A DNA stretch of 43,049 nt from Polyangiaceae bacterium (GTDB lineage Bacteria > Myxococcota_A > Polyangia > Polyangiales > Polyangiaceae), in NCBI GenBank assembly GCA_020846005.1, contig JADLEQ010000018.1:1-43049 (forward strand). Reading direction: 5' to 3'. The translations under genes and the position numbers were made by a program. This document shows, piece by piece, positions 19,086-25,212 of the stretch; the stretch's first letter is position 1, and each line of letters begins with the position of its first letter. Below the pieces are notes generated by a model. The model worked only from the letters and a program-made list of their open reading frames with translations, had not been told where the DNA came from and searched no databases.

Positions 19086-22000
19086 TCACCGCGAGCGCGA
19101 CGCGCCGCCACGCCGCCGGCGCGCCGCTAGCGCCGCGATCCCCACGAGCGCCAGCCAGCCCGCGCGACCCGGAGCCGGCGAGCCCGGGACTCGGCAGCCG
19201 CAGCCGCCGTCGTCCGCGGCGGCGGCCCCACCGCCGGTCGCGACGCACGTGCTCGTCCCCGTGTCGCAGACGAAGCCCGTCACGCAGTCCTCCGTCACGG
19301 TGCACGACGCCTTGCAGCTCCCGTCGGCCGAGCACAGGTACGGCGAGCAGTCGGTCGTCGTCCCGTCGACGCCCGTCACCGTGTGATCGCCGTCGCAGGT
19401 CGCGCCGGAGACGCAGCGCCCCGTCGCGACCTCGCACCGCGCGCCGCCGCGGCACTCCGCGTCCGCCGCGCAGCGCGTGAGGCACGCCGTGGCGCCGCAG
19501 GCGTACGGCTCGCACTCCTTCGTCCGCTCGGCCGGGCACACGCCCGTGCCATCACAGGTCGCGCCCGACGTCTCGACGCCGCCCGCGCACGACTCGGCGC
19601 GGCACTCGACCTCGATCCCGACGAACCCCGCGCACGTCGTCGTGCTCTTGGTGCCGTCGCAGGTCCGCGCCTCGCAGGGGTCACCGCCTGCCGCGCCGGG
19701 GCAGGCCACGCGGGCGCCGTGCGGCGCGCCGTTGATCGGCGAGCACGTGCCGAGCTTCGTCGCCACGTCGCACGCCTCGCACTGGCCGTCGCAGGACGCG
19801 TCGCAGCAGACGCCGTCGACGCAGTTGCCGCTCGAGCACGTGCGCGCCTCCGTGCACGTCTCGCCGTTCGGGCGCTTCTGCGTGCAGGTGCCCGAGGTGG
19901 CCTCGCAGAAGGCGGCGCCGGCGCAGTCGTCGTCCACCGCGCACGTGGATCGGCACGAGCTGCCGAGGCAGGCGTACAGGCCGCAGTCGACCTGGCTCTG
20001 CGCGTTGCACGTGCCGGCGCCATCACACGAGAAGCCCGTCTGCGTGTTGCCCTGGCAGGTCGTGAGGCCGCACGGTGCGCCGTTCGCGTAGACCTGGCAC
20101 TGCCCGGCCCCGTCGCAGAGGCCGTTGCGATCGCAGCTCGGCGCGCCGTCATCCGGGCAGTCGTCGTGCGGGTCCTCGCCCTCCTGGGCGGGGCCGCACG
20201 CGCCGTCGGCCCCGGTCGTCTTGGTCGCCGCTGCGCACGACTGGCACGTCCCGTTGCAGGCGGTGTCGCAGCAGACCCCATCCACGCAGAAGCCGCTCGC
20301 GCACTCCAGCGCGGCGCTGCAAGCGGTGCCGTCGGTCACCTTCGCGACGCAGGTCGAGCCCGCGCAGTAGTGACCGGGCGCGCAATCCGACTGCCCGGTG
20401 CAGCTCGCGCTGCAGGTCGTCCCGGTGCAGAGGTACGGCGCGCAGGAGCTCGACTGGCCGTCCACGCACGCGCCGAAGCCGTCACACAGCCGGCCGGTGA
20501 CGGTGAGCGTGTCCGTGCAGACGGTGCCGCTGCCGCACGCCGTCGACGTGCCCCACTTGGCGCAAGCGCGCGCGCCGTCGCAGGCGCCCGTCTGCCCGCA
20601 CGTCTCCGGGAGGTCGGCCGCGCAGTCGTTGTCCGGGTCGTCGCCGGAGACGACGGCGCCGCAAGCGCCGTCCGCGCCGCCGCCCTTCTTCGCCGCGGAG
20701 CACGCCTCGCAGAGGCCGTCACAGAGCTGGTCGCAGCAGAAGCCGTCGACGCAGTTCCCGCTCGTGCACATCGAGTCCTTGGTGCACGCGACGCCGTTGG
20801 CTTCGTCCGGCGTGCAGGCGTTCGCCGAGCTGCAGTACGCCGACGCGACGCAGCCCGCGTCGTCTGCGCAGCTCGTCCCGCACGCGTTACCGCTGCACAC
20901 GTACGGCGCGCACGGGGTCGTCTGCGACGGCACGCAGGCGCCCGCGCCGTCGCAGGAGGAGCCCGTCTGCGTGCCGCTCGTGCAGGTCGTCGTGCCGCAG
21001 GCGGTCCCGCTCGCGTAGTACCCGCAGCTCCCGACGCCGGAGCACGTCCCGTTGAAGCCGCAGCCGGAAGCGCCCTGGTCGGCGCACTCGGAGTCGGGGT
21101 CGGTGTCCGCGGTGACGCTCGCGCACTGGCCGTTCGGCTGCCCCGTCTTGGCGTTGCTGCACGCCTGGCAGGTCCCCGTGCAGGGGCCGTCGCAGCAGCG
21201 GCCGTCGACGCAGTTGCCGCTGGTGCACTCGGCCGCGCCCCCACACGTCTGGCCGATGGACTTGTCCGGCGTGCAGGTCGTCCCCGCGCAGTGGTAGCTG
21301 CTCACGCAGTCGTTGTTGCTGGCGCAGGAGGCGCCACAGGTGGTGCCCGCGCAGACGTACGGATGGCACTGCGTCGTGTTGCTCGGCGAGCAGGTGCCGA
21401 AGCCGTCACAGCCGTAGCCCGTCTGGGTGCCGCCGGAGCAGGTCGACGCCCCGCACGCCGTGCCGGCGGCGTAGAGCTGGCAGGCGCCGGCGCCGTTGCA
21501 GGCGCCGTTGCGGTCGCAGCCGGCCGCGCCGTCGTCGGGGCAGTCGCCGTCGGGATCGCTCCCGGCGACGATGTTGCCGCAGACGCCGTTGGCGCCGGCG
21601 CCCTTCTTCGCGCTCGAGCAGGCCTTGCAGCCCTCGTCGCAGAGCTGGTCGCAGCAGTAACCATCGGCGCAGTGCCCGCTCACGCACTGGTCGCCGGCGG
21701 TGCACGCAGCCCCGTTCGCCTGGTCGGCCTTGCACTGGGAGTCCGTCGTGTCGCAGTAGCTCGAGGCGACGCAGTGGGACGTGAGCGTGCAGCTCGTGCG
21801 GCACGCCGAGGTGTTCAGGCAATTGTACGGTGAGCACGACACGGTCGACGACTGGCAGGTGCCGAGGCCGTCGCACGCGTACGACGTCAGGGTCGTGCCC
21901 GAGCACGAGTTCGGCTGGCAGCTCGTCGCCGCGGCGTAGAGCTGGCACGCGCCAGCGCCGTCGCACACGCCGCTTCGGTCGCAGGTGGCCGCGCCGTCGT

Positions 22001-24008
22001 TCGGGCAGTCGCTGTCCGGGTCCGTCCCGGCCTGCACGTCGCCGCACGCGCCGTCGGCGCCGCCGCCCTTCTTGGCGGCGGTGCACGCGCGGCACCCGCC
22101 GGTGCACGCCTCGTCGCAGCAGACGCCGTCGACGCAGAAGCCCGTCAGGCACTGGTTCGTGGCGGTGCACGCCTGCCCGTCGCCGCGCTCGACGTAGAGA
22201 TCTGCGCCGGCCGAGGAGCCGTAGCCGCACGAGCTCGTGGTCGCGCCTCCGGCCATGAGGATGTCGCCGTTCGCGAGCGCCACGGCCGCGTGCAGCATCC
22301 GCCGCGACGACATGGAGCCGACCGACGGCGAGAGCGTGGAGCCGGGATCGTAGAGTTCGGCGGTCGTCAGGATCCCGGACCCGCTGCAGCCCCCGCTGAC
22401 GAAGACCTTGCCGTCCTGCGGGCGGAGGGTCGCGGTGTGCGAGTACCGGGCCGAGCTGAGGTTGCCCGCGGTGGTGAACCCGGTGCCGTACGCGTAGTTG
22501 AGGATGGAGGTGACCGCGGAGGCGGTGGTCTGGCCTCCGAGGATCGCGACCGAGCCGTTCGGCAGCAGCGTCGAGGTGTGGTGGCTGCGCTTGAAGGCGA
22601 ACGTCCCCGCGGACGCCCAGCTCCCGATCCCGGCGCTGGGCGTGTAGAGCTCCGCGGAGTCGAGGTAGTCGCTCGGGCCGATCCCGCCGGTGACCAGGAC
22701 GCGCCCGGCCGCGGGCATCCACGTCGCGGCCGCGCCCGCGCGGGCGGCGGACATCGACGGCCCCGCCACCCACGAGTTCGAGGACTCGGTGTAGATCGCC
22801 GTGGTCGCGGTCATCGTGGCTGTCGACGAGGTGTCGTATCCGCCAGCGATCAGCACGCGCCCGCCGCTGAACGGCGCGGCGACGTGCTGGCGACGGGTGC
22901 CGGCGAAAGACCCGGCGGAGCTCCACTTCCCCGTGCCAGGGTCGTATCGCTCGGCGCTCGTCTGGACGACCGAGGTCGAGCTCGACCCGCCGGCGACCAG
23001 CACCTGGCCGTCCGAGAGGAGGGTCGTCGAGTGGTCCCACCGACCGGTCGCGAGCGCATAAGTCGCCGCGAAAGTGCCCGAGACGCGGTCGTAGAGCTCG
23101 CACGACGAGACGACGAAGCCGGGCCCGCTCAACGAGAACCCGCCGGTGATGAGCGCGAGCCCGTCGGCCAGCAGGACGGCCCCGTGCGCCGCCCTCGCGG
23201 TCGCCAGCGAGTCCGTCGCCTGCCAGACGGGATCGACCACCAGCGGGTACTCGAGCCCCGCCGGCCACGACACCTCCACCGTGCAGCTCCCCTTGCCGGG
23301 TGGCGTCACCGGGCGGCCCCACGGCGCGGCGGGCGACCGATCCGCGGCGCAGTCGACCACCCGGATCGACGCCGCGCGCCTCTCCCCGCGGGCATCCATC
23401 ACCCACGGCGCGAGCGCCCGCAGCCGCGGCGCCCCGCTCGCGTCGAGCAGCTCCACGACGGCGTCGACCTGCCGGAGCCCGGCGACCCCCCGCTCGAGCT
23501 CGACCACGTAGGCGAGCCGCTCCGCGGCGGGCGGGCGCGCGAGCGTCACGTAGTCCTCCGTCCCGCGGGCGTCGGCCCGCTGCACGACGCTCGAGCCCTC
23601 CCCGAGCGCGCCCAGGTAGGCGGCGTGGTCGGCGTCGACCTCGGCCGCCGCTGGCGCCACGCCGACGCGGCGGACCTCGACGCTCGCGCCGCTCCGCGCG
23701 TCCTCGATGCGGAACGCGCCGTCCGCCGATCGCGGCAGCCACACGCGCGCCGTCGGCTCGACGTTCGCCGCCACGACGCCGCGCAGGCGCCCCGCGTCGG
23801 GCTCGAGCGTGGCCACGTCGGGCGGCGCCGGGGCGAGCTCGCGGATCGTCGCCGCCGCGCGGCGAGCGGCGTCGCTCACGTGCGCCGCGGCCGCGCTCGC
23901 CGGCGGCGACGCGTCGGCGTCGCCGGGCGCGGCGCCACGATCTCCGCACCCTGAGGTCACGAGGACGAAACCCAGCACGACCGCCGCGCGGCGGGACACC
24001 CGATGCAT
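19086..24008 (-). CDS. Giant kelch plus Cys-module surface protein with lipobox and MYXO-CTERM tail
   Basis: 1640 residues. The N-terminus is a signal peptide ending in LVTSGC (Cys21). Residues about 40-260 look like a beta-type N-terminal domain. About 265-605 is a kelch-type propeller with repeated HSTTLLSDGQVLVAGG-like blades. About 608-1590 consists of six Cys-rich modules of roughly 150 residues plus a half module, each with SGNCVDG-CCD, an AKKGGGADGACG-like segment, DPD-DC, GTQTG-CDG and PY-C elements. The end has the MYXO-CTERM layout: GCGC, a Pro/Gly spacer, a hydrophobic helix (WLALVGIAALAA) and RRRR. MYXO-CTERM is the proposed sorting tail of myxobacterial surface proteins. Both ends therefore carry processing signals, which is odd. 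Likely an adhesive or receptor-like surface protein. Confidence 0.9.
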   Translation of the reverse strand: MHRVSRRAAVVLGFVLVTSGCGDRGAAPGDADASPPASAAAAHVSDAARRAAATIRELAPAPPDVATLEPDAGRLRGVVAANVEPTARVWLPRSADGAFRIEDARSGASVEVRRVGVAPAAAEVDADHAAYLGALGEGSSVVQRADARGTEDYVTLARPPAAERLAYVVELERGVAGLRQVDAVVELLDASGAPRLRALAPWVMDARGERRAASIRVVDCAADRSPAAPWGRPVTPPGKGSCTVEVSWPAGLEYPLVVDPVWQATDSLATARAAHGAVLLADGLALITGGFSLSGPGFVVSSCELYDRVSGTFAATYALATGRWDHSTTLLSDGQVLVAGGSSSTSVVQTSAERYDPGTGKWSSAGSFAGTRRQHVAAPFSGGRVLIAGGYDTSSTATMTATTAIYTESSNSWVAGPSMSAARAGAAATWMPAAGRVLVTGGIGPSDYLDSAELYTPSAGIGSWASAGTFAFKRSHHTSTLLPNGSVAILGGQTTASAVTSILNYAYGTGFTTAGNLSSARYSHTATLRPQDGKVFVSGGCSGSGILTTAELYDPGSTLSPSVGSMSSRRMLHAAVALANGDILMAGGATTSSCGYGSSAGADLYVERGDGQACTATNQCLTGFCVDGVCCDEACTGGCRACTAAKKGGGADGACGDVQAGTDPDSDCPNDGAATCDRSGVCDGAGACQLYAAATSCQPNSCSGTTLTSYACDGLGTCQSSTVSCSPYNCLNTSACRTSCTLTSHCVASSYCDTTDSQCKADQANGAACTAGDQCVSGHCADGYCCDQLCDEGCKACSSAKKGAGANGVCGNIVAGSDPDGDCPDDGAAGCDRNGACNGAGACQLYAAGTACGASTCSGGTQTGYGCDGFGTCSPSNTTQCHPYVCAGTTCGASCASNNDCVSSYHCAGTTCTPDKSIGQTCGGAAECTSGNCVDGRCCDGPCTGTCQACSNAKTGQPNGQCASVTADTDPDSECADQGASGCGFNGTCSGVGSCGYYASGTACGTTTCTSGTQTGSSCDGAGACVPSQTTPCAPYVCSGNACGTSCADDAGCVASAYCSSANACTPDEANGVACTKDSMCTSGNCVDGFCCDQLCDGLCEACSAAKKGGGADGACGAVVSGDDPDNDCAADLPETCGQTGACDGARACAKWGTSTACGSGTVCTDTLTVTGRLCDGFGACVDGQSSSCAPYLCTGTTCSASCTGQSDCAPGHYCAGSTCVAKVTDGTACSAALECASGFCVDGVCCDTACNGTCQSCAAATKTTGADGACGPAQEGEDPHDDCPDDGAPSCDRNGLCDGAGQCQVYANGAPCGLTTCQGNTQTGFSCDGAGTCNAQSQVDCGLYACLGSSCRSTCAVDDDCAGAAFCEATSGTCTQKRPNGETCTEARTCSSGNCVDGVCCDASCDGQCEACDVATKLGTCSPINGAPHGARVACPGAAGGDPCEARTCDGTKSTTTCAGFVGIEVECRAESCAGGVETSGATCDGTGVCPAERTKECEPYACGATACLTRCAADAECRGGARCEVATGRCVSGATCDGDHTVTGVDGTTTDCSPYLCSADGSCKASCTVTEDCVTGFVCDTGTSTCVATGGGAAAADDGGCGCRVPGSPAPGRAGWLALVGIAALAARRRRGGASRSR
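19240..22185 (-). repeat. Six and a half ~450-bp coding repeats (Cys modules)
   Basis: Protein-level tandem modules of about 150 residues, best seen from the recurring CVDG-CCD and DPD-DC elements. They are diverged in DNA but recognisable, with the last (C-terminal) module incomplete. Confidence 0.8.
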
Positions 24009-24020
24009 GGCGCGAGTCTA
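24006..24020 (-). promoter_or_regulatory. Leaderless promoter -10 (TAGACT) of the giant surface protein
   Basis: On the minus strand TAGACT (24020-24015) ends 6 bases before the ATG at 24008; no Shine-Dalgarno site. The promoter is divergent from that of the gene at 24091. Confidence 0.55.
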
Positions 24021-24077
24021 CCCGAGCGCACGCCGGGGGCGAGCGCGAAGGCCGAGCCCGCCAGCCGGTCCCTCTGC

Positions 24078-24093
24078 TAGGCTCCCGCGCGTG
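24078..24093 (+). promoter_or_regulatory. Leaderless promoter -10 (TAGGCT) of the phosphatase-like lipoprotein
   Basis: TAGGCT at 24078-24083, extended by TGC, ends 7 bases before the GTG at 24091. No Shine-Dalgarno site. Confidence 0.55.
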
Positions 24094-25212
24094 AAGCACC
24101 TCCAATCCTTGGGCTGGGCGGCTGTGGCGGGGCTCGCCTGCGCGTGCGGGACCAGCGGCGGCGCCGATCGCCCGGCGAACACGGGCGGCGCCGCCGGCAC
24201 CGCGGGCGCCGCCGGCGCGGACGCGAGCGCGAGCGGCGGCGCCGGCGGGGGCGGCACCACCGACTCCGGGCCGCCCCTCGGAGATCTCGTGGGTCCCGAG
24301 CCGGGGTTGAAGCTCGCGCTGTTCGGCGACCAAGGGAACAACGCGAACTCGCGCGCGCTCCTGAAGCTGATCGTCGATCAAGGCGCGGACGCCGTCGTCC
24401 ACCTCGGCGACTTCGACTACGCGGACGATCCGGTGGCCTGGGGCGCGCTCATGGCGGAGCTCGGAGACATCCCGTGGCTCGCCGTGGTCGGCAATCACGA
24501 TACCGACGCTTGGACGGGCTACCGGGAGGTGATCGATCAGCAGCTCGCGAAGTTCACCGCCGCGACCTGCACGGGCGAGCCCGGGGTGCAGCACGCGTGC
24601 ACGTTCCGTGGCGTCCACGTGATGCTGAGCGGGATCGGGCTCATGGGCACCGGGCACGAGGCCTTCCTCGAGGGGCAGCTCGCGTCGAGCAAGCACGTGT
24701 GGCGCCTCTGCGGTTGGCACCTGAATCAGCGTGACATGCAGCTCGGCGACAAGGGGGACGAGACGGGCTGGGACGTGCACGAGGTCTGCCAGGCGCGGGG
24801 GGGCATCATCGTGAACGGCCACGAGCACTCGTACGGCCGCACGCTCACGCTCACGGATGTCGGGAACTCCGCGAGCGGTCACGGGGCGACCGGGCCGTGG
24901 GACGAGCTCCGGGTCGCGCTCGGGTCGACGTACCTGATCGTCAGCGGGGCGGGTGGACAGAGCCTCAGGATGTACGACGCCGCCGAGCACGACGACGACA
25001 CGTGGTGGGCGGGCGGCTACGCGAGGGATGTCCGCATCGACGACGGCGTCCGCACCGACGGCCTCAACCTGCCGGCGGCCGGCGTCGTCTTCCTCGAGCT
25101 GGGGGTGGATGGCAATCCGCGCAAGGCGCGCGGCAAGTACCAGCTGGTCGACGGCTCGGTCGTCGACGAGTGGACTACGTACGTCGACACGACCGGGTTC
25201 AGCGGCGGCTGA
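24091..25212 (+). CDS. Purple-acid-phosphatase-like metallophosphoesterase lipoprotein
   Basis: A 373-residue exported protein. The GTG start opens a short signal peptide with candidate lipobox Cys17/Cys19, followed by a Gly/Ala/Ser linker to about residue 60. The phosphoesterase domain has FGDQG (Asp80), LGDFDYADD (about 105-113), GNHDTDAW (134-141) and GHEHSYGR (243-250), the metal-binding set of secreted purple acid phosphatase-like enzymes. Late residues (IVSGAGGQSLR) are also usual for that group. Expected activity is phosphomonoester or diester hydrolysis outside the cytoplasm; the substrate is unknown. It is transcribed divergently from the giant surface protein and convergently with the kinase pair. 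Confidence 0.87.
   Translation: MKHLQSLGWAAVAGLACACGTSGGADRPANTGGAAGTAGAAGADASASGGAGGGGTTDSGPPLGDLVGPEPGLKLALFGDQGNNANSRALLKLIVDQGADAVVHLGDFDYADDPVAWGALMAELGDIPWLAVVGNHDTDAWTGYREVIDQQLAKFTAATCTGEPGVQHACTFRGVHVMLSGIGLMGTGHEAFLEGQLASSKHVWRLCGWHLNQRDMQLGDKGDETGWDVHEVCQARGGIIVNGHEHSYGRTLTLTDVGNSASGHGATGPWDELRVALGSTYLIVSGAGGQSLRMYDAAEHDDDTWWAGGYARDVRIDDGVRTDGLNLPAAGVVFLELGVDGNPRKARGKYQLVDGSVVDEWTTYVDTTGFSGG

Follow-up and report, generated by a model that had tools for sequence, protein, structure and literature searches.

A single gene of a Polyangiaceae bacterium encodes a giant protein that carries a lipobox at its N-terminus and a MYXO-CTERM signal at its C-terminus, which raises the question of by which end, or ends, this protein is held at the cell surface. 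The window, meaning the whole stretch of DNA analysed (43,049 nucleotides), corresponds to the complete contig C18, in a draft genome of 5.70 Mb and 119 contigs. The first-pass annotation had placed the gene at 19086-24008, and the open reading frame matches these coordinates exactly, on the minus strand (Table 1). We propose that the product is a giant surface lipoprotein and at the same time a myxosortase substrate, which would cross the outer membrane by type II secretion and stay anchored there at both of its ends; we put the probability of this reading at roughly 45%. The neighbor genes encode a GH2-like hydrolase, a divergent calcineurin-like phosphoesterase and a kinase-AAA-TPR protein, and no operon context linking these three to the giant surface-protein gene was found. 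The phosphoesterase gene (24000-25212, plus strand) apparently has a lipoprotein signal of its own at its start.

Table 1. Features of the giant surface-protein gene, in window coordinates.
Feature	Coordinates	Strand	Detail	Evidence
Giant surface-protein gene	24008..19086	minus	ATG start, 1640 aa	ORF list, translation
Signal peptide with terminal lipobox	23949..24008	minus	residues 1-20; lipobox VLVTSG	translation; PROSITE-like rule
Cys21, predicted Lgt/LspA lipidation site	23946..23948	minus		translation; Cys kept in 53/57 relatives
Short disordered tether	23886..23945	minus	residues 22-41	pLDDT < 50 at 22-26 and 29-40 in model
N-terminal beta-rich domain	23217..23873	minus	residues ~46-264; ends with PLVVDPxW motif	AlphaFold2 model; homologous in relatives
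Kelch beta-propeller	22191..23216	minus	residues ~265-606	Pfam PF13418/PF01344; profile; Foldseek
Six Cys modules	19218..22190	minus	residues 607-1597	Cys signature; two-module model
MYXO-CTERM	19110..19211	minus	GCGC motif, hydrophobic helix, RRRR	TIGR03901

The N-terminal domain (~220 aa, with approximate boundaries) and the propeller were modelled together with AlphaFold2, giving a pLDDT of 90.6 and a pTM of 0.90. PF13418 matched five stretches of the kelch region with 77.4 bits, above the Pfam cut-off, the profile of the region matched solved kelch propellers, and the propeller model matched a designed kelch propeller in Foldseek (E 1.9e-19). The earlier kelch call is thus borne out both by repeats above the cut-off and by a propeller fold in the model. 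Binding of a ligand or partner is probably the task of the propeller.

At the N-terminus, Cys21 stands directly after MHRVSRRAAVVLGFVLVTSG, and the positive n-region, the hydrophobic core and the lipobox plus Cys of a lipoprotein are all present under a PROSITE-like rule. Thr at position -3 is uncommon but does occur: in 400 kb sampled from this genome, 2 of 27 strict lipoboxes have it. Here and below, signal-peptide types were assigned by this home-made rule and without a trained predictor, and starts were picked by the highest signal-peptide score, blind to the Cys; the N-termini of long frames may be wrong. At the other end, the last 45 residues hold GCGC, a hydrophobic stretch and RRRR, that is, the cysteine, helix and arginine cluster of a MYXO-CTERM. 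The curated NCBIfam model TIGR03901 matched residues 1600-1633 with 26.9 bits against a cut-off of 20 (33.2 bits in the genome search), in agreement with the MYXO-CTERM call of the first-pass annotation.

Relatives were gathered from 59 genomes including its own, 37 of which gave a match at E <= 1e-5, as well as from 80 loci in named genomes, the regions being hand-picked from the best matches among the 59 genomes and from the 80 loci. The 181 homologous frames were reduced to 127 complete and 116 distinct ones, 57 of which have the N-terminal domain, the kelch region and a MYXO-like C-terminus, as judged by a pattern looser than TIGR03901. Within named genomes, most of the relatives belong to the Myxococcota, and the kelch part also occurs in a few other phyla. 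Among the 57 relatives, which are not independent of one another, 53 have the lipobox Cys, three have a type I signal (L120, L119 and L078) and one is without a signal peptide. The 53 come under 30 genome labels, or ~28 after merging of records with identical ORFs. A Cys can stand at this position by chance, and composition-keeping shuffles of the 56 scorable relatives gave a lipobox in 16.9; against the 53 observed, the view that the lipobox Cys is coincidental is hardly credible.

The C-terminal Cys is invariant (57/57), and at three columns at least 90% of the relatives retain Arg. At E <= 0.01, TIGR03901 recognised 37 of these C-termini and the other 20 fell short, so that at least 33 relatives have both signals by the curated model. 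Other proteins with both signals, which the first-pass annotation had suggested looking for, therefore exist, and the pair is conserved across the family. Given that relatives in other species keep both signals, the surface protein may be pinned twice. More tentatively, these proteins may form a conserved myxobacterial family in which each terminus receives a covalent lipid by a pathway of its own, Lgt/LspA at the N-terminus and the myxosortase route at the C-terminus, resulting in a doubly anchored surface loop.

The lipobox was less regular among Cys-module relatives without kelch (n = 22; 8 lipobox, 11 type I, 3 unclear) than among N-domain/kelch proteins without MYXO-CTERM (n = 14; lipobox in 7 of 9 scorable), indicating that it tracks the cassette of N-domain and kelch and does not simply come with the stalk. 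Judged from these sequences, the dual-signal form may have arisen by fusion of a kelch lipoprotein with a MYXO-CTERM stalk. That N-domain/kelch relatives can be lipoproteins without a MYXO-CTERM also agrees with an explanation in which only the N-terminal lipid matters: the MYXO-CTERM would retain the chain at the inner membrane and deliver it to type II secretion, and once cleaved the C-terminus would be free or weakly modified, leaving a lipoprotein on a stalk. One paper proposes, rather than measures, that the MYXO-CTERM Cys is lipidated, and names Lgt as the leading acyltransferase candidate (PMC11980579). Yet the C-terminal Cys is invariant in our relatives, and cleavage of TraA by MrtX is reported to require conserved cysteines (PMC11980579), which makes this explanation unlikely.

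Conversely, only the C-terminal anchor might survive, if the lipobox served export and the lipidated tether were then cut, as in the sequential hand-over that the first-pass annotation had offered as one of two readings, or if signal peptidase I cut instead. The short disordered tether behind Cys21 in the model would suit such a cut, and MXAN_4924 is described as combining a type I signal with MYXO-CTERM (PMC3325183). Considering that three relatives have a type I signal, such a signal would be available to the family, yet the lipobox is retained by 53 of 57, and we regard loss of the N-terminal anchor as quite unlikely. Nothing specific was found for the hand-over, and the doubly anchored loop, the other of the two readings, is simpler and appears to be the best explanation.

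We further compared the N-termini of MYXO-CTERM proteins outside the family. The same genome has 27 MYXO-CTERM places above the TIGR03901 cut-off, and 23 N-termini were scored (8 lipobox, 15 type I), four genes being left out because of a contig end or an unrecovered frame. Five of the eight lipobox proteins are homologous by blastp (the window protein, C11:104010, C107:105430, C11:69056 and C84:50427), and three are non-homologous to the window protein (C43:187010, C81:59782 and C54:32396). Outside the family, the lipobox was found in 3 of 18 MYXO-CTERM proteins, as against 30 of the 59 exports sampled as background (Fisher p 0.014), and the true background share is probably higher than 30/59 because, by eye, several of the 'type I' entries seem to be cytoplasmic. 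When all 23 scorable proteins were compared with the same background, the difference was not significant (p 0.22). A phylum sample of MYXO-CTERM proteins, which was a non-random set of 60 high-scoring rows (3 unrecovered, 2 without a start, 55 scored), had 11 lipobox, 37 type I and 7 unclear N-termini; under a looser first rule 13 of 55 had a lipobox, and two of the final 11 (L320 and L329) are doubtful by eye. Given the 11/55 in the phylum and the 3/18 versus 30/59 in its own genome, the two signals seem to be mostly alternatives, with the kelch family as the exception.

Machinery for both signals is encoded in the genome. LspA was found at one place and Lgt-like genes at four (C107, C22, C86 and C81); the C107 Lgt scored 164.7 bits on TIGR00544 (cut-off 118.9) and the other three fell below the cut-off. 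One Lgt-like gene adjoins LspA on C22. At least one Lgt was present in 58 of the 59 genomes, mostly in 2-5 copies. There are seven CPBP proteases, six of which were scanned with NCBIfam, the L212 frame being left out; one of them is the myxosortase MrtC (NF040594, 296.4 bits, cut-off 195). The genome also has two secretins, with a GspN-like place (26.1 bits, below the cut-off of 29.6) ~11 kb from one of them.

Two further candidates concerning this machinery were dropped. The canonical lgt (C107:45287-46246, L219) lies ~110 bases after a MYXO-CTERM gene. An Lgt dedicated to MYXO-CTERM was rejected, since by eye L219 was the only one of 33 lgt loci with a convincing MYXO-CTERM neighbor, and five further neighbor rows, at four loci, looked spurious. 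In A. baumannii, GspN is reported to take lipoproteins through the type II secretion route (PMC12802150). A GspN sorting motif was rejected as a family feature because the post-Cys motifs reported for GspN-dependent lipoproteins were not enriched: among 53 family members, 2 had a Gly/Ser-rich stretch and 0 an Asn/Asp-rich one, and among 30 other lipoproteins encoded in this genome the counts were 4 and 0. The post-Cys GDRGAAP of the window protein is of neither kind, and the rule comes from A. baumannii and may not hold for this host.

The two signals, their joint conservation and the encoded enzymes can be read from the DNA, and on this basis the doubly anchored surface protein would be made as follows. 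Sec would export the giant kelch protein, Lgt would diacylate Cys21 and LspA would cleave before it, while the MYXO-CTERM helix would keep the other end in the inner membrane. Lgt or another enzyme would then lipidate the GCGC cysteine, and MrtC would remove the helix. Type II secretion would carry the folded, disulfide-rich protein over the outer membrane, and two lipid anchors would hold it in the outer leaflet as a loop, with the N-terminal domain and the kelch propeller close to one anchor, from where the Cys stalk would return to the other. TraA reportedly arrives at the surface through type II secretion, and its MYXO-CTERM is reported to be cut by MrtX (PMC11980579). Since two signals could address different membranes and the Cys-module array is long, the two ends of the protein might also be placed in different membranes. 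Given that a myxosortase is encoded in the genome and that the studied MYXO-CTERM proteins go to the surface (PMC11980579), we consider such an arrangement very unlikely.

The closest known systems resemble the window protein in part. TraA and MXAN_4924 of Myxococcus xanthus, the latter described as very similar to TraA, likewise have an N-terminal domain, Cys-rich repeats that are proposed to form a rigid stalk, and MYXO-CTERM (PMC3325183). They differ in that MXAN_4924 has a type I signal sequence where the window protein has a lipobox (PMC3325183), in a PA14 domain where the window protein has kelch, and in their TIGR04201 repeats, a model that at E <= 0.01 matches 2 of the 41 module pairs of our set and does not match the first pair of the window protein. 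Type II secreted surface lipoproteins, such as pullulanase PulA and InvL, share the N-terminal lipobox and surface anchoring after export, whereas a C-terminal sorting tag is not described for them in the available part of the source (PMC12802150), and their post-Cys motif is the one not enriched here. GlyGly-CTERM proteins of Vibrio cholerae, which are processed by rhombosortase, share a C-terminal sorting tag, an intramembrane protease and type II export, but tag and protease are different ones, and the accessible portion of the report mentions no lipobox for them (PMC13393428). The combination of lipobox and MYXO-CTERM was not described in the literature searched, which was covered in part, and it may already be in print. 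MYXO-CTERM, lipoproteins, kelch and Cys stalks are each known; as far as our searches show, a conserved double-signal family is not described in that literature.

Such a family would offer a built-in control, as the N-terminal Cys would report Lgt activity within one molecule. If the proposal is true and both cysteines are Lgt substrates, both modes of action of Lgt could be followed in a single protein. What purpose a double anchor serves is a question raised by the difference between this family, which keeps it in 53 of 57 members, and the other sampled MYXO-CTERM proteins, which are mostly without it (lipobox in 11 of 55).

The presumed stalk consists of six Cys modules starting at residues 607, 762, 915, 1068, 1223 and 1378, so that the signature recurs after 155, 153, 153, 155 and 155 residues; six modules of ~150 residues had been noticed before. 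Modules 1-5 have 24 Cys each, and the stretch assigned to module 6 is longer, with 220 aa and 32 Cys. Any two of the six are 40-55% identical, and Cys positions are nearly invariant across 41 module pairs. A two-module structure model had a pLDDT of 96.1 and a pTM of 0.70. Searches for a solved relative found none by sequence at E <= 1 and none by Foldseek at E <= 0.001, and a second structure comparison had a best Z of 2.8 over 25 residues; these null fold searches are no evidence for a new Cys-module fold. Dickkopf_N (PF04706) scored 19.0 bits on the window protein, under its cut-off of 25, and TIGR04201 (Myxo_Cys_RPT) matched neither the window protein nor its first module pair at E <= 1. 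Across the 41 pairs, PF23416 matched 15, PF04706 11 and TIGR04201 two at E <= 0.01. The 24-Cys, ~155-aa module is thus poorly covered by existing Pfam and NCBIfam models.

The first-pass annotation had attributed the modules to expansion by tandem duplication, which stands in outline. Modules 2, 5 and 6 of the paralogue L032 are nearest to window modules 3, 4 and 5, respectively, and window module 6 is nearest to a module of L044, followed by module 7 of L032. Because modules 3-6 pair in the same order with paralogue modules, the duplication appears to be old. A recent tandem duplication was ruled out by this shared order together with the absence of a long DNA tandem array over the module region. 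Modules 1 and 2 closely resemble one another, so that a later duplication is possible there. In several genomes, kelch/MYXO relatives occur in clusters of two to four genes per stretch (L098, L125, L164 and L109).
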